Source: Streptomyces sp. NBC_01445 (GTDB lineage: Bacteria; Actinomycetota; Actinomycetes; Streptomycetales; Streptomycetaceae). From it: a DNA stretch of 64,000 nt. Position numbers and translations under genes: made by a program. Positions within the stretch are counted from its first letter, which is position 1. Each line of letters opens with the position of its first letter. The notes beneath the pieces were generated by a model. The model was not told the DNA's origin. It ran no database searches and saw nothing but the letters and a program-made list of their open reading frames with translations. Location: NCBI RefSeq assembly GCF_035918235.1, contig NZ_CP109485.1, positions 4,464,001 to 4,528,000 on the forward strand. The letters are read 5' to 3'. This document shows, piece by piece, positions 2,441 through 21,576 of the stretch.

Positions 2441-4017
2441 GTGATGCGCACGACCGGCTGCGGGGCTGGGCCGCGGCGAAGAAGGCGATACTCGCGGGCC
2501 TGCGCTTCACGAGCCTGCGGCTGCGGCTCGTCGTCGTCTTCGCCCTGGTGGCGCTGACCGCGGCGGTGTCGGCGTCCGGGATCGCGTACTGGCTCAACCG
2601 CGAGGCGGTGCTGACCCGGGCGCAGGACGCGGCGCTCAGCGACTTCCAGCAGGAGATGCAGAATCGGGCCGCGGCGCTGCCCGAGCATCCGACGCAGGGC
2701 GAGTTGCAGCATGCGGCGAACCTGATGGCGAGCAGCAGCCAGCACTTCAGTGTGCTGCTGATCAGCGACGACAAGGACGGCCGGCGGATCGCCGGGAACT
2801 CCGACCTGGACGCGATCACGCTGGCCGAGGTGCCGCGTTCGCTGCGGGACGCGGTGAACAGGGAGCAGCCCCTCACGGACGGCAACAAGCATCCGTACCA
2901 CCTGTACTGGCAGCGGATCGTCAGCAATGACACGCCGTATCTGGTCGGTGGGGCGCGGGTGATCGACGGGGGGCCGACGGGCTACATGCTCAAGTCCCTG
3001 GAGCCGGAGGCGAAGGATCTCAACTCCCTTGCCTGGTCGCTCGGGATCGCGACGGCGCTTGCGCTGATCGGTTCGGCGCTGCTCGCACAGGCCGCGGCGA
3101 CGACGGTGCTCAAGCCGGTGCACCGGCTCGGGAGGGCGGCACGGCGGCTCGGCGAAGGAAAGCTGGACACGCGTCTGCGGGTGTCCGGTACGGACGAACT
3201 GGCCGATCTTTCCAGGACGTTCAACAGGACCGCGGAGAATCTGGAGAAGAAGGTCGCCGACATGAGTGCGCGCGAGGAGGCGTCGCGGCGCTTCGTCGCC
3301 GACATGTCGCACGAGCTGCGTACGCCACTGACGGCGATCACCGCCGTGACGGAGGTACTCGAGGAGGAGCTCGACGCGGAGACCGGTTCGGTCGACCCGA
3401 TGATCGAGCCCGCCGTACGCCTCGTGGTGAGCGAGACGCGCCGGCTGAACGACCTGGTGGAGAACCTCATGGAGGTCACCCGCTTCGACGCGGGCACCGC
3501 CCGGCTCGTCCTCGACCAGGTCGACATCGCCGACCAGATCACGGCCTGCATCGACGCCCGTGCCTGGCTCGACGCGGTGGACCTGGACGCGGAGCGCGGC
3601 ATCATGGCCCGCATCGACCCGCGCCGCCTCGACGTCATCATGGCGAACCTGATCGGGAACGCGCTCAAGCACGGCGGCTCGCCGGTGCGGGTGTCCGTGC
3701 GGCTTGCGGACTCGGAGCTGGTGATCGAGGTCCGTGACCACGGGCCCGGTATCCCGCAGGACGTGCTCCCGCACGTCTTCGACCGGTTCTACAAGGCGAG
3801 CGCGTCGCGGCCGCGTTCGGAGGGCAGCGGGCTCGGGCTGTCGATCGCCCTGGAGAACGCGCACATCCACGGCGGCGAGATCACGGCCGCCAACTCCCCC
3901 GAGGGCGGCGCCGTGTTCACGTTCCGGCTGCCGCTCGACGCGTCACCGCTGACGCTGCCGCCCGATGACGAGGGCGCCGACGGTGGCGGTTCCGGTGAGG
4001 AGGGCGGCGCGCGATGA
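2437..4017 (+). CDS. afsQ2: Sensor histidine kinase AfsQ2
   Basis: A membrane kinase of 526 residues. It has TM1 (about 30-50), an extracytoplasmic sensor segment of roughly 140 residues, TM2 (about 195-215), HAMP, and a DHp helix with the phosphorylated His in DMSHELRTPLTAI. The ATP-binding domain has N-box (NLIGNALKHG), G1 (DHGPGI), F-box (FDRFYK) and G2 (GSGLGLSI). The start GTG overlaps the afsQ1 stop as GTGA; an upstream in-frame start at 2338 lies inside afsQ1 and is not needed. The C-terminus is an acidic, Gly-rich tail. It presumably phosphorylates AfsQ1 Asp52. Its stop overlaps the next start by ATGA. Confidence 0.93.
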   Translation: MSDAHDRLRGWAAAKKAILAGLRFTSLRLRLVVVFALVALTAAVSASGIAYWLNREAVLTRAQDAALSDFQQEMQNRAAALPEHPTQGELQHAANLMASSSQHFSVLLISDDKDGRRIAGNSDLDAITLAEVPRSLRDAVNREQPLTDGNKHPYHLYWQRIVSNDTPYLVGGARVIDGGPTGYMLKSLEPEAKDLNSLAWSLGIATALALIGSALLAQAAATTVLKPVHRLGRAARRLGEGKLDTRLRVSGTDELADLSRTFNRTAENLEKKVADMSAREEASRRFVADMSHELRTPLTAITAVTEVLEEELDAETGSVDPMIEPAVRLVVSETRRLNDLVENLMEVTRFDAGTARLVLDQVDIADQITACIDARAWLDAVDLDAERGIMARIDPRRLDVIMANLIGNALKHGGSPVRVSVRLADSELVIEVRDHGPGIPQDVLPHVFDRFYKASASRPRSEGSGLGLSIALENAHIHGGEITAANSPEGGAVFTFRLPLDASPLTLPPDDEGADGGGSGEEGGAR

Positions 4018-7324: not shown

Positions 7325-7347
7325 ACTCTAACGCCTACGCGCGTAGA
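7325..7347 (-). promoter_or_regulatory. add promoter with shared nucleoside-gene operator
   Basis: The -10 TAGAGT (7325-7330, complement) ends 6 nt before the ATG. Upstream lies the perfect 12-bp palindrome CTACGCGCGTAG at 7335-7346, between the -10 and the expected -35, where a repressor would block transcription. Related palindromes occur at 14411, 18955 and 20169. Confidence 0.7.
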
Positions 7348-13098: not shown

Positions 13099-14376
13099 TC
13101 AGCCGATGCGTTCCCGCACGACCGGCGTGGGCTCGAATGCCGTGCCCGGGGCCGAGATGTCGTAGGAACCCTCGACGGACTCAAGGGCGTACTCGAAGCG
13201 CTCCGGGGTGTCCGTGTGCAGGGTCAGGAGGGGCTGGCCCGCGGTGACGGGGTCGCCCGGCTTGGCGTGGAGTTCGATGCCGGCGGCGGCCTGGACCGGG
13301 TCCTCCTTGCGGGCGCGGCCCGCGCCGAGGCGCCAGGCGGCAACGCCGATGCCGTACGCGTCGAGGCGGGTCATGACGCCGGACTTCCCGGCCACCACCA
13401 CGTGCTGCTCACGGGATGTGGGCAGCGCCGCGTCGGGGTCACCGCCCTGCGCGGCGATCATGCGGCGCCAGACGTCCATCGCGGAGCCGTCGGCGAGGGC
13501 CTTCGCCGGGTCGGCATCCTTGATGCCCGCCGCGTCGAGCATCTCGCGGGCCAGGGCGAGGGTGAGCTCGACGACGTCGGAGGGGCCGCCGCCCGCCAGT
13601 ACCTCTACGGACTCCCGGACTTCGAGCGCGTTGCCGGCGGTGAGGCCGAGGGGCGTCGACATGTCGGTGAGCAGGGCGACCGTGCGCACGCCGCTGTCGG
13701 TGCCCAACTCGACCATGGTGGAGGCGAGTTCGCGGGCGTCCTCGATCGTCTTCATGAACGCGCCGGTGCCGACCTTGACGTCGAGGACGAGCGAGCCCGT
13801 GCCCTCGGCGATCTTCTTCGACATGATCGAGGAGGCGATGAGCGGGATCGCCTCGACGGTGCCGGTGACGTCGCGCAGCGCGTAGAGCTTCTTGTCTGCG
13901 GGGGCGAGCCCGTCGCCGGCCGCACAGATCACGGAGCCGACGGTGTCGAGGACGTTCAGCATCTCGTCGTTGGAGAGCAGGGCGCGCCAGCCGGGGATGG
14001 ACTCCAGCTTGTCGAGAGTGCCGCCGGTGTGGCCGAGGCCGCGGCCGGAGAGCTGCGGGACGGCGGCGCCGCACGCGGCGACCAGCGGGGCGAGCGGCAG
14101 CGTGATCTTGTCGCCGACGCCGCCGGTGGAGTGCTTGTCGGCGGTCGGGCGGGACAGGGACGAGAAGTCCATGCGCTCGCCGGAGGCGATCATCGCGGCG
14201 GTCCAGCGGGCGATCTCCGTACGGTTCATGCCGTTGAGGAGGATCGCCATGGCGAGCGCCGACATCTGCTCGTCCGCGACGACGCCGCGCGTGTACGCGT
14301 CGATGACCCAGTCGATCTGCTCGTCGCTGAGTTCGCCCCGGTCCCGCTTGGTCCGGATGACGGAGATGACGTCCAT
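13099..14376 (-). CDS. deoA: Thymidine phosphorylase
   Basis: 425 residues, the usual size. It phosphorolyses thymidine and deoxyuridine to base plus deoxyribose 1-phosphate. Phosphate- and nucleoside-binding motifs are present: KHSTGGVGDKITL, and the family signature SGRGLGHTGGTLDKLE (about 112-127). C-terminal strands with LHAKPGDPVTAGQPLL form the third domain. AAGGA nine bases upstream supports ATG 14376. It follows cdd but a terminator separates them, and it has its own promoter overlapping the operator shared with add and the nucleoside importer. Confidence 0.96.
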   Translation of the reverse strand: MDVISVIRTKRDRGELSDEQIDWVIDAYTRGVVADEQMSALAMAILLNGMNRTEIARWTAAMIASGERMDFSSLSRPTADKHSTGGVGDKITLPLAPLVAACGAAVPQLSGRGLGHTGGTLDKLESIPGWRALLSNDEMLNVLDTVGSVICAAGDGLAPADKKLYALRDVTGTVEAIPLIASSIMSKKIAEGTGSLVLDVKVGTGAFMKTIEDARELASTMVELGTDSGVRTVALLTDMSTPLGLTAGNALEVRESVEVLAGGGPSDVVELTLALAREMLDAAGIKDADPAKALADGSAMDVWRRMIAAQGGDPDAALPTSREQHVVVAGKSGVMTRLDAYGIGVAAWRLGAGRARKEDPVQAAAGIELHAKPGDPVTAGQPLLTLHTDTPERFEYALESVEGSYDISAPGTAFEPTPVVRERIG

Positions 14377-14408
14377 GGCGTTGTCCTTCCGCAGGTGGCA
14401 GCAGGCCG

Positions 14409-14437
14409 ACTCTACGCGCATAGAGCGACCCGTTGAA
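14409..14437 (-). promoter_or_regulatory. deoA promoter with nucleoside-gene operator
   Basis: On the complement, -35 TTCAAC (14437-14432), 17-bp spacer, -10 TAGAGT (14414-14409). The palindrome TCTATGCGCGTAGA (14424-14411) overlaps the -10 and differs by one base from the perfect copy at add. Confidence 0.7.
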
Positions 14438-14469: not shown

Positions 14470-14859
14470 TCAGTTGAGGTGCTGGGGTCCGAACGCGTCG
14501 GGGAGCATCTCGCCGAGCGGGCGGATCCCCGATGTCGTCTCCAGGAGCAGCTCGGTGCCCCCGAACTCGTAGAGGAGCTGGCGGCAGCGGCCGCACGGCA
14601 TCAGGATCTCGCCCTTGCCGTCCACGCACGTGAAGTGCGTCAGGCGGCCGCCGCCGGTGAGCTGGAGCTGCGAGACGAGCCCGCACTCGGCGCACAGGCC
14701 GAGCCCGTACGACGCGTTCTCGACGTTGCAGCCCGACACGGTGCGGCCGTCGTCCACGCGGGCCGCGGCGCCGACCGGGAAGGCCGAGTACGGCACGTAC
14801 GCGCGGGACATGGCCTCGCGGGCCGCCTCCCTGAGTGCTTCCCAGTCGGCTTCCGTCAC
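14470..14859 (-). CDS. cdd: Cytidine deaminase
   Basis: 129 residues, the small homotetrameric form. The zinc-site signature is complete: CAE (Cys ligand and catalytic Glu) in GLGLCAECGL and PCGRC for the other two Cys ligands; substrate residues FPVGAA and NVENASYG are present. It deaminates cytidine and deoxycytidine. GTG 14859 overlaps the permease stop by 4 bp, making it the last gene of the importer operon: uptake is coupled directly to catabolism or salvage. Confidence 0.96.
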   Translation of the reverse strand: MTEADWEALREAAREAMSRAYVPYSAFPVGAAARVDDGRTVSGCNVENASYGLGLCAECGLVSQLQLTGGGRLTHFTCVDGKGEILMPCGRCRQLLYEFGGTELLLETTSGIRPLGEMLPDAFGPQHLN

Positions 14860-16145
14860 TTGCCCTGACCCTTCCGGTAGCGCATGCCGTCGGCCTTGGG
14901 CATCCGCAGCCGCTGCGCGGACAGGGAGAGCACCAGGAGGGTGACGACATACGGGGTGGCGCCGACGAAGTCGCCGGGCACCTCATCCGTCAGGAGGTAC
15001 CAGACCAGGACAACCACGGCAATCACCGCGCTGATCGTGGCCTGGATCATGGCCTTGCGGTACGCCTTCCAGCCCGCAAGCAGAGCCAGCAGCACGACCA
15101 GCAGGAGCAGCAGCGCGTGGACGGTCTCGCCGCCGTTGCGCAGCTGGAGCGCGTCGGAGAAGCCGAACAGGCCCGCGCCCATGGCGAGTCCGCCCGGCCG
15201 CCAGTTGCCGAAGATCATGGCGGCGAGGCCGATGTAGCCGCGCCCGCCGGTCTGGCCCTCCAGGTAGCTGTGCGAGGTGACCAGCGCGAGGAACGCGCCG
15301 CCGAGACCCGCGAGTCCGCCGGAGATGGCGACGGCGGCGTACTTGTGCGCGTACACGTTGACGCCGAGGGACTCGGCCGCGACCGGGTTCTCGCCGCAGG
15401 AGCGCAGGCGCAGGCCGAACGAGGTGCGCCACAGCACCCACCAGCTGCCCACGAAGAGCAGCACGGCGAGGATCGTGATCACGGAGACGTTGGTGACCAG
15501 GCCGCCGAGGATGCCGGCGAGGTCGGAGACCAGGAACCAGTGGTGCTGCTCGATGGAGTGCAGTGCGCTGGACAGGCCCGGGATCGTGACGTCGCCGAGC
15601 GACTCGGCGGGCGGCGACTGCTTGGGGTTGCCGCCCTTGGCCGCGGGCTCGCCGTCGGCGAAGAACAGTTTGGCGAGGTACTGGGTGGCGCCCAGGGCGA
15701 GGAGGTTGACGGCGACACCGGAGACGATGTGGTCGACGCCGAACGTGATGGTGGCGACGGCGTGGATGAGACCGCCAAGGACACCGAAGCCGATGCCACA
15801 GACGAGGCCGAGCCAGGGGCTGGTCTGCCAGCCGAGCCAGCCGGCGCCGAACGTGCCGAGGATCATCATGCCTTCGAGGCCGATGTTGACCACGCCGGCC
15901 CGCTCCGACCACAGGCCCGCGAGAGCCGCGAGGCCGATGGGCACGGCGAGTCCGAGGGCGGCGCTGATCTGGCCGCCGGAGGTGAGCTGGTCGGCGCCCG
16001 TGATGACGCGGACGGCGGAGACCAGGAACAGCGCACCGACGACGATCATCAGGGTCTGGCCCGTGGAGAGCCGGCCGCGCGCCTTCTTGGCGCCGCTGAC
16101 CGCGGGTGCCGCCGGCGGCGGGGTGTCGGTCGTCGTGGCGGTCAT
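14856..16145 (-). CDS. Nucleoside ABC transporter permease 2
   Basis: 429 residues, many hydrophobic helices, of the BPD_transp_2 family used by BMP-dependent nucleoside importers. Features include RAGVVNIGLEGMMILG and the coupling-loop-like SCGENPVAAESLGVNV, both typical. The N-terminus has a Thr/Pro/Ala-rich cytoplasmic tail. ATG 16145 overlaps the upstream permease stop (ATGA), and its own stop overlaps cdd. It forms the channel together with the other permease. Confidence 0.92.
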   Translation of the reverse strand: MTATTTDTPPPAAPAVSGAKKARGRLSTGQTLMIVVGALFLVSAVRVITGADQLTSGGQISAALGLAVPIGLAALAGLWSERAGVVNIGLEGMMILGTFGAGWLGWQTSPWLGLVCGIGFGVLGGLIHAVATITFGVDHIVSGVAVNLLALGATQYLAKLFFADGEPAAKGGNPKQSPPAESLGDVTIPGLSSALHSIEQHHWFLVSDLAGILGGLVTNVSVITILAVLLFVGSWWVLWRTSFGLRLRSCGENPVAAESLGVNVYAHKYAAVAISGGLAGLGGAFLALVTSHSYLEGQTGGRGYIGLAAMIFGNWRPGGLAMGAGLFGFSDALQLRNGGETVHALLLLLVVLLALLAGWKAYRKAMIQATISAVIAVVVLVWYLLTDEVPGDFVGATPYVVTLLVLSLSAQRLRMPKADGMRYRKGQGK

Positions 16146-17287
16146 CCGGCCACCTCCTGCTTGTCGGTGCGGACGGCGGCGGCCTGCGCGGCGAGTTCGG
16201 CGCCGACCCGCTGCTGCTGGCGCTTGAGCCCGTAGCGGCGTACGACTTCGTAGGCGATGACGACGCACAGGACGATGACGCCCTGGATCACGCCGAGGAT
16301 CTCCTTGTCGTAGCCCTGGAACTCCAGGTGGTTGGTGGTGCGCTCCAGGAAGCCCCACAGCAGGGCGCCGAGCGCGATGCCGACCGGGTGGTTGCGGCCG
16401 AGCAGCGCGATCGCGATGCCTGTGAAGCCGAGGCCCACCGGGAAGCTGTTGTCGTACTGGTGGCTGTCGTTGAGCAGCGTCGGCATGCCGACCAGACCGG
16501 CCACGGCACCCGAGATGACCATGCTGGTGGCGACCATCTTCTTGACGCTGACGCCGCTCGCGGCGGCCGCCGACTCGGACTGGCCGACCGTGCGCAGGTC
16601 GAAGCCGAAGCGGGTGCGGCCGAGGACGAACCAGTACGCGACGCCGACGAGCACGGCGATCACGATGAAGCCCCAGACCTGGCCGGCCGGTCCCGCGTCG
16701 ATCATGAAGAAGTTCGAGGACTCGGGCAGCGGCTTGGTGGACACCAGGGTGCCCGCCTCGTCGAGCTGGCCGAGCTGCTCGGGCTGGAGGAGGTAGGCGA
16801 TGATCGCGGTCGCGATCGAGTTGAGCATGATCGTCGAGATGACCTCGCTGACACCGCGGGTCACCTTGAGGATGCCCGCGATGGCGGCCCACAGGGCACC
16901 GGTCGCCATGGCGGCGAGCAGGATCAGCGGGATGGAGAGCCAGCCGGGCAGCGTGAGCGCCCCGCCGAGCACGGCCGCGACGAACGCGGCGAGCCGGTAC
17001 TGGCCGTCGACACCGATGTTGAACAGGTTCATGCGGAAGCCGATGGCCACCGCGACACCCGCGAGGTAGTACGTCGTCGCCTTGTTGAGGATGTAGACCT
17101 GGCTGTCGCTCGCGGAGCCGTAGGTCACCATGTCGCTGAACGCGGCGAAGGGGTCCTTGCCGGTCGCCGCGATGATCACGGCGGTGACGACGAGTGCGGC
17201 GATGATCGCCAGGAGCGGGGCGGCGACCGCGAGGATCAGCCGCTCCTTGTCGATCCGGGACTTGCCCCGGGATATCAGTGTCTTCAT
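16142..17287 (-). CDS. Nucleoside ABC transporter permease 1
   Basis: 381 residues, BPD_transp_2 family, paralogous to the next permease. It has an N-terminal helix after a basic stretch, then IGFRMNLFNIGVDGQ, a motif in this family's first subunit, and TVGQSESAAAASGVSVKK in the loop that contacts the ATPase. ATG 17287 overlaps the ATPase stop by 4 bp. Order ATPase-permease-permease-cdd matches guanosine/uridine-type importers in Gram-positives. Confidence 0.92.
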   Translation of the reverse strand: MKTLISRGKSRIDKERLILAVAAPLLAIIAALVVTAVIIAATGKDPFAAFSDMVTYGSASDSQVYILNKATTYYLAGVAVAIGFRMNLFNIGVDGQYRLAAFVAAVLGGALTLPGWLSIPLILLAAMATGALWAAIAGILKVTRGVSEVISTIMLNSIATAIIAYLLQPEQLGQLDEAGTLVSTKPLPESSNFFMIDAGPAGQVWGFIVIAVLVGVAYWFVLGRTRFGFDLRTVGQSESAAAASGVSVKKMVATSMVISGAVAGLVGMPTLLNDSHQYDNSFPVGLGFTGIAIALLGRNHPVGIALGALLWGFLERTTNHLEFQGYDKEILGVIQGVIVLCVVIAYEVVRRYGLKRQQQRVGAELAAQAAAVRTDKQEVAG

Positions 17288-18852
17288 CGGGCGTCCCCGC
17301 CTTCGGCGTCTTCCGTGTGCTCGAGGTGGCCGGAGGCCGCACCTGTCATGGCGGAGCCCAGCTCCTCCGGGGTGATGGTGGCGGGGTCGGCGTCGGCGAC
17401 CAGGCGGCCGCGGTACATCACCCGCAGGGTGTCGGACAGGCCGATCAGCTCGTCCAGGTCGGCCGAGATGAGCAGCACGGCGAGGCCCTCGCGGCGGGCG
17501 CGGCGGATCTGGTCCCAGATCTGGGCCTGTGCGCCGACGTCCACACCGCGGGTGGGGTGGGCGGCGATCAGCAGCTTGGGCGCGTGGCTCATCTCGCGGC
17601 CGACGATCAGCTTCTGCTGGTTGCCGCCGGACAGGGAGGCCGCGGTGACCTCGATGCCCGGGGTGCGGACGTCGTAGTCGCGCACGATGCGCTCGGTGTC
17701 GGCGCGGGCGGCCTTGAGGTCGAGCAGCCCGCCCTTGGAGTTGGGGCGCTCGGTGACATGGCCGAGGACCCGGTTCTCCCACAGCGGCGCTTCGAGGAGC
17801 AGCCCGTGACGGTGCCGGTCCTCGGGGATGTAACCGACACCGGCTTCGCGGCGCTTGCGGGTGGGGGTCCGGGTGACGTCGGCGCCGTCCAGAGCGACGG
17901 TGCCGCGGTCCGGGGCCCGCATGCCCATGATGGCCTCGACGAGTTCGGACTGGCCGTTGCCCTCCACGCCCGCGATGCCGAGGACTTCGCCGCGGTGGAT
18001 GGTGAAGCTGACGTCGTCGAGGATGACGCGCTCGACGCCGTCCAGGTCGGTCTGCGTGAGGCGCACCCCGCCCAGGTGGAGCATCGGGGTGTCGGTGACC
18101 GTCGACTCCTCGGTCTCCGGCGACGGCAGCTCGCTGCCGACCATGAGCTCGGCGAGCTGCTTGGTGCTCGTGTTCTTCGGGTCGGCCGTGCCGACCGTGG
18201 TCCCGCGCCGGATGACCGTGATCTCGTCCGCGACGGAGAGCACTTCGCCCAGCTTGTGGGAGATGAAGATGACCGTGAGGCCCTCGGACTTGAGCTCGCG
18301 CAGGTTGTCGAAGAGCGCGTCGACCTCCTGCGGCACGAGGACCGCGGTGGGCTCGTCGAGGATCAGCGTCCGGGCGCCCCGGTAGAGGACCTTGAGGATC
18401 TCGACGCGCTGCCGGTCGGCGACCCCGAGCTCCTCGACGAGGACGTCGGGGCGCACCCCGAGGCCGTACGCCTCCGATATCTCGCGGATCTTCGTACGTG
18501 CCTTGCCGCCGATGCCGTGCAGCTTCTCGGCGCCCAGGACGACGTTCTCCAGGACGGTGAGGTTGTCGGCCAGCATGAAGTGCTGGTGGACCATGCCGAT
18601 GCCGCGCGCGATGGCGTCGGCGGGCGTGGCGAAGGTGACCTGGGTGCCGTCGACCGCGATGGTGCCCTCGTCCGGCTTCTGCATGCCGTAGAGGATCTTC
18701 ATCAGGGTCGACTTGCCGGCGCCGTTCTCACCGCACAGGGCGTGGACGGTGCCCCGCCGTACGGTGATGTCGATGTCGCGGTTGGCGACGACGCCGGGAA
18801 AGCGCTTGGTGATGCCGCGCAGTTCGACGGCGGGAGGGCTGGACGCGTTGAT
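17284..18852 (-). CDS. Nucleoside ABC transporter ATPase with non-canonical ATC start
   Basis: A 522-residue protein with two fused ATP-binding halves, the usual size for ATPases of BMP-type nucleoside importers. The first Walker A (GENGAGKST) is at residues 41-49 only if translation begins at ATC 18852. There is no ATG, GTG or TTG in frame between the upstream stop (TAG near 18957) and the Met at residue 51 (18702), which would leave out the whole Walker A. A GAGGAGA Shine-Dalgarno lies exactly 7 nt before the ATC, where ATG would be expected. Walker B is LILDEPT in half 1; half 2 has LSGGNQQK but a degenerate Walker B (LLIAAHPTRGVD). Rare ATC initiation, a mutation or a base-call error are the options. 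Confidence 0.9.
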   Translation of the reverse strand: MNASSPPAVELRGITKRFPGVVANRDIDITVRRGTVHALCGENGAGKSTLMKILYGMQKPDEGTIAVDGTQVTFATPADAIARGIGMVHQHFMLADNLTVLENVVLGAEKLHGIGGKARTKIREISEAYGLGVRPDVLVEELGVADRQRVEILKVLYRGARTLILDEPTAVLVPQEVDALFDNLRELKSEGLTVIFISHKLGEVLSVADEITVIRRGTTVGTADPKNTSTKQLAELMVGSELPSPETEESTVTDTPMLHLGGVRLTQTDLDGVERVILDDVSFTIHRGEVLGIAGVEGNGQSELVEAIMGMRAPDRGTVALDGADVTRTPTRKRREAGVGYIPEDRHRHGLLLEAPLWENRVLGHVTERPNSKGGLLDLKAARADTERIVRDYDVRTPGIEVTAASLSGGNQQKLIVGREMSHAPKLLIAAHPTRGVDVGAQAQIWDQIRRARREGLAVLLISADLDELIGLSDTLRVMYRGRLVADADPATITPEELGSAMTGAASGHLEHTEDAEGGDAR

Positions 18853-18859
18853 GGCGCAC

Positions 18860-18866
18860 TCTCCTC
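18860..18866 (-). promoter_or_regulatory. Shine-Dalgarno deciding the ATC start of the ABC ATPase
   Basis: GAGGAGA on the complement, 7 nt before ATC 18852. It fixes the start position even though the codon is not canonical. The same bases could not serve a useful start in another frame. Confidence 0.7.
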
Positions 18867-18953
18867 GGGGGACAGGACGTACGTACGGAAGGGGTGAACG
18901 GTCGCGCGGAGCCGCGCGGGGGCGCGTCGGCGACGGTAATACGCCAACCCATA

Positions 18954-18967
18954 GCTACACGCGTAGA
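18954..18967 (-). promoter_or_regulatory. Nucleoside-gene operator upstream of the ABC operon
   Basis: CTACACGCGTAG (18955-18966), one mismatch from the perfect palindrome at add, about 100 bp upstream of the ATPase start. On the complement it reads into TAGCTA, a possible -10. The 193 bp between the ATPase and BMP genes hold no other gene. Confidence 0.6.
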
Positions 18968-19045
18968 GTTGACACATTGTTATGGCCCGGCGAGGGGAAG
19001 CTTTCGCCACTCCCCCCGCCGAGCCGGGCCCTCAGGGGCCTGAGG

Positions 19046-20107
19046 TCACGGGGTGGTCTTGACCTTGACCTTGCCGCTCGCGATCTGCTCCTTGGCGGCG
19101 TCCAGCTTGGCCTGGATGTCGTCGATGTAGCCGCCGGAGGTGGCGAGCGAGACGCCGCCGTCCTTCAGGGCGTAGGTGTTGGTGCCGGTCTTCGGCGAAC
19201 CGTCCTTGACCGACTGGATCAGGTCGTAGACGCCGATGTCGACGTTCTTGACGACCGAAGTCAGGATCGAGGACTTGTACTTGGCCAGACCCGGGATGTT
19301 GTACTGGTCCGAGTCGACGCCGATCGCCCAGGCGCCCTTCGTGCCGGAGACGGCCTCGATGGCACCGTTGCCGGAGGAGCCGGCCGCCGAGTAGACGACG
19401 TCGGCGCCCTTGTCGAGCATGCCCTGGGCGGCTTCCTTGCCCTTGTCCGGGGAGGCGAAGCCGGAGGTGTCCGAACCGTGGCTCAGGTACTGGACGTCGA
19501 CCTTGATCTTCGGGTTGGTGGCCTTGACGCCCTGGACGTAGCCCGCCTCGAACTTCTTGATCAGCGGGACGTCGACACCGCCGATGAAGCCGACGTGGTC
19601 CTTCTTCGTCTTCAGCGCGGCGGCGACGCCGGCCAGGTAGGAGCCCTGCTCCTCGGTGAAGACGATGGAGTCGGTGTTCTTGGCGTTCACCACGGAGTCG
19701 ACGATGCCGAAGGTGGTCTTCGGGTACTTCGCGGAGACCTTGGTCATCGAGGTGGCGTACGCGTAGCCGACCCCGATGATGGGGTTGTAGCCGGCGTCGG
19801 CCAGGTCGGACAGGCGCTGCTCGCGGTCGGCCTCGGTGTCGGAGGTCTTGGCGGTCAGCTCCTTGAGGTCACCGCCGAACTCCTTCTTGGCCTTGTCGGC
19901 ACCGCGCGCGGCGGAGTCGTTGAAGGAGTGGTCGCCGCGGCCGCCGACGTCGAAGGCGAGGCCGATCTTGACCCCGCCCTTCTTGCCGGAGTCCGACGAG
20001 GAGCCCGAGGACTCGTTGTCCGAGGAAGTGCCGCCACATGCGGTGGCGGTGAGAGCGAGTGCCGCGGTGGCTATGCACGCAGCAGAGATTTTGGCTACCC
20101 GGCGCAA
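19046..20107 (-). CDS. BMP-family nucleoside-binding lipoprotein
   Basis: 353 residues: signal peptide with lipobox-like TATAC (Cys about 24), a Ser/Gly linker, then a BMP (basic membrane protein, PnrA-like) domain starting VKIGLAFDVGGRGDHSFND, with GVGYAYATSM, GFIGGVD and VVYSAAGSSGNG. PnrA-type proteins capture purine or pyrimidine nucleosides for an ABC importer. TTG 20107 follows AAGGAG at 6 nt. It lies just upstream of the ATPase-permease-permease-cdd operon on the same strand but has its own operator, so binding protein and membrane complex are co-regulated as two units. Confidence 0.93.
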   Translation of the reverse strand: MRRVAKISAACIATAALALTATACGGTSSDNESSGSSSDSGKKGGVKIGLAFDVGGRGDHSFNDSAARGADKAKKEFGGDLKELTAKTSDTEADREQRLSDLADAGYNPIIGVGYAYATSMTKVSAKYPKTTFGIVDSVVNAKNTDSIVFTEEQGSYLAGVAAALKTKKDHVGFIGGVDVPLIKKFEAGYVQGVKATNPKIKVDVQYLSHGSDTSGFASPDKGKEAAQGMLDKGADVVYSAAGSSGNGAIEAVSGTKGAWAIGVDSDQYNIPGLAKYKSSILTSVVKNVDIGVYDLIQSVKDGSPKTGTNTYALKDGGVSLATSGGYIDDIQAKLDAAKEQIASGKVKVKTTP

Positions 20108-20167
20108 GGGAGGCTCCTTCGACCTGACCTGAGCGCCGGGCTCCCGGCGCTGGTTTTCGGACGGATC

Positions 20168-20181
20168 GTAACGCGCGTAGA
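20168..20181 (-). promoter_or_regulatory. Nucleoside-gene operator upstream of the BMP gene
   Basis: TAACGCGCGTAG at 20169-20180: the right half-site is perfect and the left has two mismatches to CTACGC. It lies about 60 bp upstream of the TTG start. The rest of 20108-20316 shows no gene. Confidence 0.55.
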
Positions 20182-20316
20182 TGTCAGATAAAGGGCCGTT
20201 CCGCAGCCGTTATCGGATTGACGCGAACGACGCCCGGCGGTCCGGTCTACGGGGCGTTACGGGGGTGGGTCGGGTGGGTTACGTGCCGCCCACACCGACC
20301 CTTTCCCCGCACCGAT

Positions 20317-21576
20317 TTACGCCCCCTGCTCCCGTGCGGCCCCGTCCATCAGCGCCGCCGCGGTGAACAGCTCCACTCCTACGGTGATCGCCGACTCGTC
20401 GGCGTCGAAGTCGCCCTGGTGCAGGTCGCGTCCGCCGCGCTCGCCGGGGGTGCGCACCCCGAGGCGGGCCATGGCGCCGGGGACGTGCTCCAGATACCAG
20501 GAGAAGTCCTCGCCGCCCAGGCTCTGCTGGGTGTCCTCGACGGAGTGGGCGCCGCGGCGCAGCGTCATCGCGGCGGTCAGGAGGTCGGTGACCTCCGGGT
20601 CGTTGACCACGGGCGGCACCCCGCGGATGTAGTTGATCTCCGACTTGGCGCGGTAGAGGTCGGCGATCTCCTGGATCGCGCCGTGCACCAGGTCGGGCGC
20701 CTGCCGCCACGCTTCGAGGTCGAGGCAGCGGACGGTGCCGGACAGCTCGGCGTGCTGCGGGATGACGTTGCACGCGTGGCCGGATTCGATACGTCCCCAG
20801 GTCACGGCGAGGCCCGAGCGGGCGTCGATGCGGCGGGCGACGAGCGCGGGGACCTCGGTGGCCACCTTCGCGGCGGCGGTCACGAGGTCGGTGGTGAGGT
20901 GGGGGCGCGCGGTGTGCCCGCCGGGCCCGTCGAGCGCGACCTCGAGACGGTCGCAGGCCGAGGTGATCGCGCCGTGCCGCAGCCCGATCCGGCCCGCGTC
21001 GACCTTCGGGTCGCAGTGCACGCCGATGATCGACCCGACGCCTTCGAGCACGCCCGACTCGATGGCGTCGGGGGCGCCGCCGGGCAGCACCTCCTCGGCG
21101 GGCTGGAAGATCAGGCGTACGGGGTGCGGGAGCCGGCCCTGCCGGTGCAGCTCGGCGAGGACCAGGCCCGCGCCGAGCACGACCGTCGTGTGCACGTCAT
21201 GGCCGCAGGCGTGAGCGCGGCCGGGCACGGTGGATCGGTAGGCGCAGCTCGCCTTGGTGTCCGGGATGGGAAGCGCGTCGATGTCGGCGCGCAGGGCGAG
21301 CATGGGGGGCCCGCCCCGCCACTCCCCCTCCGCCGTGCCGATGTCGCAGACGAGTCCCGTGCCGATGTCCAGAATGCGTGGAGTGAGCCCGGCCTTCTCC
21401 AGGCGGGCCCTGATCGCCGCCGTGGTGCGGAACTCCTGGTTGCCGAGCTCGGGGTGCATGTGCAAGTCGCGGCGGAAGGCAACCAGTTCGGCACGGAGCT
21501 CTTCGGACAGCGTGCCGGGGAGCGCTCCGGAGGGGACCACTTCCCCGGGCTGACCGGCCTCGGACTCTCGGGACAT
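20317..21576 (-). CDS. M20-family amidohydrolase
   Basis: 419 residues, the usual length for M20D amidohydrolases (hippurate hydrolase/IAA-amino-acid hydrolase-like). Metal motifs: HACGHDVHTT with the two His ligands, FQPAEEVLPGG with the Glu pair, and GVHCDPKVDAGRIG; the C-terminal LGGEDFSWYLEHVPG is characteristic. It hydrolyses N-acyl amino acids or similar amides in the cytosol; the substrate is not deducible. ATG 21576 is chosen; GTG 21588 in frame is possible. It stands alone between two intergenic regions. Confidence 0.88.
   Translation of the reverse strand: MSRESEAGQPGEVVPSGALPGTLSEELRAELVAFRRDLHMHPELGNQEFRTTAAIRARLEKAGLTPRILDIGTGLVCDIGTAEGEWRGGPPMLALRADIDALPIPDTKASCAYRSTVPGRAHACGHDVHTTVVLGAGLVLAELHRQGRLPHPVRLIFQPAEEVLPGGAPDAIESGVLEGVGSIIGVHCDPKVDAGRIGLRHGAITSACDRLEVALDGPGGHTARPHLTTDLVTAAAKVATEVPALVARRIDARSGLAVTWGRIESGHACNVIPQHAELSGTVRCLDLEAWRQAPDLVHGAIQEIADLYRAKSEINYIRGVPPVVNDPEVTDLLTAAMTLRRGAHSVEDTQQSLGGEDFSWYLEHVPGAMARLGVRTPGERGGRDLHQGDFDADESAITVGVELFTAAALMDGAAREQGA

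Follow-up and report, generated by a model that had tools for sequence, protein, structure and literature searches.

The ATPase gene of a BmpA-type importer in this Streptomyces genome begins at ATC, and comparison with relatives makes it close to certain that this codon, at 18852 on the minus strand of the window (the whole 64,000-nucleotide stretch of DNA analysed), is the real start of the gene. The overall reading, to which a probability of roughly 0.7 is given, is that a start codon which is non-canonical, conserved and probably under IF3 restraint limits the membrane part of the importer. Bacterial genes known to retain a start codon outside AUG, GUG and UUG are few. A passage of Belinky 2017 gives one switch to AUU reconstructed among 61,358 ancestral AUG starts (PMC5622118), and a passage of Feeney 2017 states that the full set of IF3-repressed genes is still to be found (PMC5472188). 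With AUH (AUC, AUU or AUA) retained in several families, this transporter gene offers a clean natural example, and its start site a ready reporter. A literature search returned no report of an AUC start in this importer gene; the widely kept AUC start would join the small known set, with IF3 as a good but unproved mechanism. The features of the locus are the following.

19046..20107, minus strand: bmpA-like substrate-binding lipoprotein gene with a TTG start (open reading frame; Pfam PF02608, Bmp)
18955..18966, minus strand: palindrome CTACGCGTGTAG, a candidate operator in the gap between bmpA and the ATPase gene, one of four exact sites in the genome
18955..18957, minus strand: in-frame TAG stop upstream of ATC, at -105 from it
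18861..18865, minus strand: Shine-Dalgarno sequence AGGAG, 8 nt before ATC, read from the sequence
18853..18860, minus strand: spacer AGTGCGCC, giving AGGAG-N-GTG together with AGGAG; columns 97-100% conserved except for C/T at -2
18850..18852, minus strand: ATC start codon; the homologous codon is AUH in 153 of 156 loci of the family and in 19 of 33 from other families
17284..18852, minus strand: importer ATPase gene, a reading frame of 522 codons from ATC to TGA, with two ABC_tran stretches (PF00005)
18706..18732, minus strand: first Walker A motif, GENGAGKST, residues 41-49 of the translation, upstream of Met51
16142..17287, minus strand: permease 1 (PF02653), its ATG start read as overlapping the ATPase stop in ATGA
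14856..16145, minus strand: permease 2 (PF02653), its start read as overlapping the permease 1 stop in ATGA
14470..14859, minus strand: cytidine deaminase gene (PF00383), in the same run of genes
13099..14421, minus strand: pyrimidine nucleoside phosphorylase gene (PF00591, PF07831, PF02885), drawn from the first ATG, with an alternative start possible at 14376

On the minus strand the genes thus run in the order bmpA, ATPase, permease 1, permease 2, cytidine deaminase and pyrimidine nucleoside phosphorylase, and by Pfam this one run holds the Bmp binding protein, double ATPase and two permeases of a BmpA-type importer set. The ATPase (judged on the best 25 of its 190 matches), permease 1 and the binding protein reach no NCBIfam cut-off, and for this reason the substrate is assigned from the neighbours: the cytidine deaminase, the phosphorylase and a shared palindrome suggest that the importer carries nucleosides. 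Among solved structures there was no relative at E 1e-40, and matches in the plasmid collection were mostly to distant relatives. The gap between bmpA and the ATPase gene also holds, at 18983-19030 of the window, a hairpin-like inverted repeat, seen by eye and partly aligned, that might terminate or attenuate the transcript of bmpA.

The original prediction, made from this DNA alone, held that no in-frame ATG, GTG or TTG lies between the upstream TAG and Met51, and that a start at Met51 would delete the first Walker A motif. Direct reading bears out both statements: the ATPase frame contains none of the three codons from the TAG (18957-18955) to Met51 (+150, 18702-18700), and the motif, which we take to be a Walker A, occupies residues 41-49, with GAGKS present in all 171 AUH loci. 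The Shine-Dalgarno sequence was likewise correctly placed; the predicted GAGGAGA at 7 nt and the GAGGAG read here at 18866-18861, followed by 8 nt, are the same place.

Several observations across relatives mark the codon as a start rather than an internal isoleucine. An upstream in-frame stop is in view for 167 of the 171 AUH loci, and in 114 of the 167 no canonical codon stands between that stop and AUH; in 41 there is also none as far as Walker A. In L096, L047, L049, L075 and L084 the stop lies only 6, 21, 21, 33 and 33 nt before AUH and no canonical codon intervenes; in L103 a stop 15 nt upstream of ATT is followed by an intervening GTG. Codon 2 and the length of the linker vary while the spacing of AGGAG is near-constant: of the 152 rows filed as family, 145 have the last GGAG 8 nt before AUH and 7 have it 6 nt before, and in the 17 other rows scored it precedes the start by 6-9 nt. 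The start of permease 1 is canonical in all 79 usable named loci (ATG in 74, all with the ATGA overlap, and GTG in 5), the script, confined to canonical codons in the vicinity of the ATPase stop, having located one at each locus. For bmpA, the start is GTG in 17 and TTG in 3 of the 20 loci, out of 30, where the script placed it.

Starts were scored in 184 loci of at least 60% identity, a set with some repeats, by a script that picked the best AUH codon behind a Shine-Dalgarno sequence and thus preferred AUH. AUH with a Shine-Dalgarno sequence and no canonical codon was returned for 102 of the 184, and AUH with a Shine-Dalgarno sequence plus a canonical in-frame codon lacking one for 64; in 4 (L032, L044, L069, L140) both kinds of codon have a Shine-Dalgarno sequence, 8 have only a canonical codon with one, 5 a canonical codon without, and 1 (L188) neither. 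L188, a Streptomyces sabulosicollis contig, ends in an apparent library adaptor that extends into the start of the gene. Twenty starts were set by hand (L064, L065, L073, L090-L092, L098, L100, L102, L104, L107, L110, L191-L195, L197-L199), and that of L196 was taken as ATC by eye. The least certain AUH calls are L087, with a GTG inside the Shine-Dalgarno sequence, and L193, with an ATG just before it. Excluded from the counts were L081 and L082 (repeats of L001 and L004), L188, L109 (infC), and L074 and L076-L080, which fall below 66% identity and were taken as paralogues; L200-L204 are loci added later. L075 is filed under other for the leader profile and spacing rows and as a family member in the 153 of 156.

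Within the family, the 153 AUH loci among the 156 callable orthologues comprise 150 ATC, 2 ATT and 1 ATA, and the remaining three are 2 GTG and 1 ATG, all behind changed leaders; the counts are not of independent events, because loci may share species and Streptomyces is heavily sampled. A second genome of the same species (99.4% identity) has ATC too. A 361-base query over the start found a match in 295 of 295 genus genomes, the weaker matches not all reaching the start, and in the loci fetched from the best 30 of these 295, the same-species genome included, ATC was present in 30 of 30. Twenty chosen lower-ranking members of the genus gave 19 ATC and 1 ATT. A further 28 genomes were picked for a missing start pattern, another genus or a variant, and the 24 loci taken from them as orthologues gave 19 ATC, 1 ATA, 1 ATT, 2 GTG and 1 ATG; G295, G298, G312 and G322, with no match above 51% identity in the listed rows bar one fragment, were taken as lacking an orthologue. 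Three more family loci, from the class search, have ATC, as do all 79 usable loci among the named ones (the best 80 of at least 583). When 200 family genomes were searched for the start pattern with up to one mismatch, 107 matched, and the matches with the importer leader were ATC apart from one ATA; an ATG match in G341 was set aside, having a different leader and reading as an unrelated protein.

This comparison strongly supports the rare AUC initiation that had been proposed as one of two explanations. ATG at that codon in relatives, named beforehand as counting against it, was not found in the family; a homologous ATG occurs in the more distant L102. The rare ATT and ATA codons appear to be drift of ATC behind a conserved leader, and a start kept by most relatives suggests a retained brake on making the importer. 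The AUH leader is lost in L064 and L065, genus members with GTG, and in L073, where the ATG overlaps the apparent stop of bmpA. These three could be natural revertants that might reveal the purpose of the AUC start.

The block AGGAGAGTGCGYC-ATC is nearly invariant across the family, with positions -13 to +3 being 92-100% identical in 117 distinct family rows except for the C/T choice at -2. The strong, near-invariant AGGAG before the odd start in these rows is partly so by construction, as the profile rows were chosen as AUH with a Shine-Dalgarno sequence, which fixed the +1 and +2 columns and in part those of the Shine-Dalgarno sequence; the spacer columns were left free by this choice. A leader of the AGGAG-N-GTG type is found in 145 of the 153 AUH family loci as compared to 6 of 18 others, and the one base by which it exceeds the sigR leader AGGAGGTG, which it resembles, would bulge on pairing with 16S rRNA. 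When 57 loci were folded singly, the mean unpaired probability was 0.23 for the Shine-Dalgarno sequence and 0.81 for the start; because the Shine-Dalgarno sequence is mostly paired in these folds, structure could also limit translation, and RNA structure may share in control of the ATPase. A search for known regulatory RNAs in 18600-20400 gave three matches at E up to 1, all far below family cut-offs. Matches in the genome to AGGAGNGTGCGYCATH with at most one mismatch number 3, versus 1 for the reversed-pattern control; the two outside the importer, one inside a longer open frame and one without a convincing gene, look like chance and were rejected.

The start is not confined to one family. 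Of 118 genomes of the class that were searched, 39 had a match at E 1e-150 or better. Outside the genome's own family lie 32 of the 39, and with the Nonomuraea locus L110 these make 33 other-family loci: 14 ATC, 5 ATT, 7 ATG and 7 GTG. AUH is not essential, because 14 of these 33 loci, and 3 of the 156 in the family, use ATG or GTG. Two loci of one genus, g59, have ATT (L093) and ATG (L102) at the same place and behind the same kind of leader. One group with ATT is Microbispora, as identified by public proteins 95-100% identical, and the best of these public proteins has its annotated start at the ATT codon itself. On a tree of 61 chosen rows the three start states need at least 8 changes, versus a mean of 16.1 when shuffled, with none of 200 shuffles as low; the midpoint root separates three long-branch rows (2 GTG, 1 ATG) from the other 58, of which 44 are AUH.

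That translation begins elsewhere, whether at the leader GTG followed by a frameshift, at codon 11 (CTG), at some in-frame codon further upstream or at Met51, is very improbable, even though several of these starts are used in public annotation. When the annotated starts of 120 listed relatives (of 7997 scored) were sorted by first residues, 26 lay further upstream in frame, 17 at Leu11 (CTG), 12 at Met51 and 6 elsewhere, as compared to 59 at the ATC site. The frameshift was rejected because the leader GTG is absent from genus g14 (L063, L067, L069), and it is changed in L075. Codon 11 was rejected as well, being CTG in 108 and CTC in 59 of the 171 AUH loci. An upstream start has no canonical codon to use in the 114 of 167 loci counted above, and a start at Met51 loses Walker A. 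Public annotation, then, partly uses the AUC start already, and the expectation that automatic annotation would cut the protein at 18702 holds for the 12 listed relatives that start at Met51 and fails for the 59; with relatives of this ATPase carrying at least four different starts in public data, the locus is also a warning about annotation. The other explanation originally offered, a read error or else a recent point mutation from ATG to ATC, is excluded: the independent second genome of the species has ATC, as do 150 of 156 family loci.

Control of transcription may be a separate layer. Exact copies of the palindrome CTACGCGYGTAG occur at four places in the 11.47 Mb genome, and a stretch of 30 kb takes in all of them (7335-7346 and 18955-18966 of the window; 3122-3133 and 6910-6921 of L203). 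One lies in the start region of a phosphorylase-superfamily gene, two others 14 nt before a DeoC-family gene and 17 nt before an adenosine deaminase gene, and the fourth in the gap between bmpA and the ATPase gene. Because a reversed-pattern control also matches (2 forward, 2 reverse), the number of sites is modest, and it is their clustering at nucleoside genes that is the point. Weaker copies occur at the start of the phosphorylase gene (14412-14423, 1 mismatch) and before bmpA (20169-20180, 2 mismatches), and copies with at most 2 mismatches in the window, 19 versus a mean of 13.7, are at chance level, with 14 of 100 shuffles giving as many. Among family loci, 131 of 156 carry the exact palindrome in the 300 nt upstream, versus 0 of 32 others. 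It is a candidate operator of a local nucleoside regulon, and its distribution suggests that a single transcription regulator serves both the uptake and the salvage of nucleosides, in addition to the translational brake.

That an AUC start keeps expression low, as the original prediction also held, is plausible. In the proposed mechanism, initiator fMet-tRNA would read the AUC of the ATPase gene, which a strong Shine-Dalgarno sequence precedes by 8 nt; the strong leader would hold the 30S subunit, and imperfect pairing at AUC would let IF3 reject many complexes, as for infC and sigR. On this account little ATPase would be produced compared with the BmpA lipoprotein, which has a canonical start of its own, and how much would depend on IF3; the ATGA overlaps would extend this limit to the two permeases. 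An operator shared with nucleoside-salvage genes would set transcription separately. The same anatomy, including the separate canonical start of bmpA, fits an account in which the AUC start is real but only sets a constant low level of importer, for reasons of stoichiometry or toxicity, and the level of IF3 is no signal; binding proteins are usually in excess over the membrane complex. A weak Shine-Dalgarno sequence with AUG would suffice for a constant low level, yet the leader is strong and conserved, which weighs somewhat against this account and leaves it unlikely.

The preferred reading, by which we infer IF3 control of the importer ATPase start, has a broader and more tentative form, somewhat doubtful as matters stand, in which initiation fidelity governs nucleoside import in much of the class, AUH being held by selection and importer synthesis reading out the availability of IF3. 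If so, nucleoside salvage would follow the state of the translation machinery, and an IF3-controlled metabolic gene, of wider spread than the sigR GTC, would stand beside infC and the stress regulator sigR.

How the importer compares with known systems can be set out for its genes and for its start. Like BmpA-type nucleoside ABC importers, it has a Bmp protein, a double ABC ATPase and two BPD_transp_2 permeases, followed by a deaminase and a phosphorylase; unlike them, its ATPase, permease 1 and binding protein reach no NCBIfam cut-off, and its substrate is assigned from neighbouring genes. For the start, a passage on a reconstituted system reports that IF3 disfavours weak third-base pairs, AUU/CAU among them, and the passages of that source at hand give no value for AUC/CAU (PMC10158994). 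The gene for IF3 is itself a precedent: according to passages of PMC5472188, infC starts at AUU in E. coli and at ATC in Streptomyces, and is autoregulated by IF3. In the genome analysed here infC starts as GAGGAGGATCC-ATC, after AGGAGG, and thus resembles the importer gene in having an AUH start behind a strong Shine-Dalgarno sequence. It differs in that infC encodes the sensor and closes a feedback loop, whereas the importer would be a target only, with IF3 control proposed by analogy. Passages of the same source describe the sigR gene of S. coelicolor as starting at GTC behind AGGAGGTG and as repressed by IF3, with SigR overproduced when GTC is changed to ATG, GTG or TTG, and with GTT in place of GTC in 2 of 34 species (PMC5472188). 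The importer start is like that of sigR in being non-canonical, in drifting at the third letter and in following an extended leader (AGGAGGTG in sigR), and the gene likewise lies in an ATGA-overlapping operon where the ratio of proteins matters; the difference lies in another codon and another class of gene, and in the one extra base of the importer leader (AGGAG-N-GTG). According to the same source, M. tuberculosis and C. glutamicum show no sign of the sigR GTC start (PMC5472188), whereas the AUH start of the importer gene is found in several other families.
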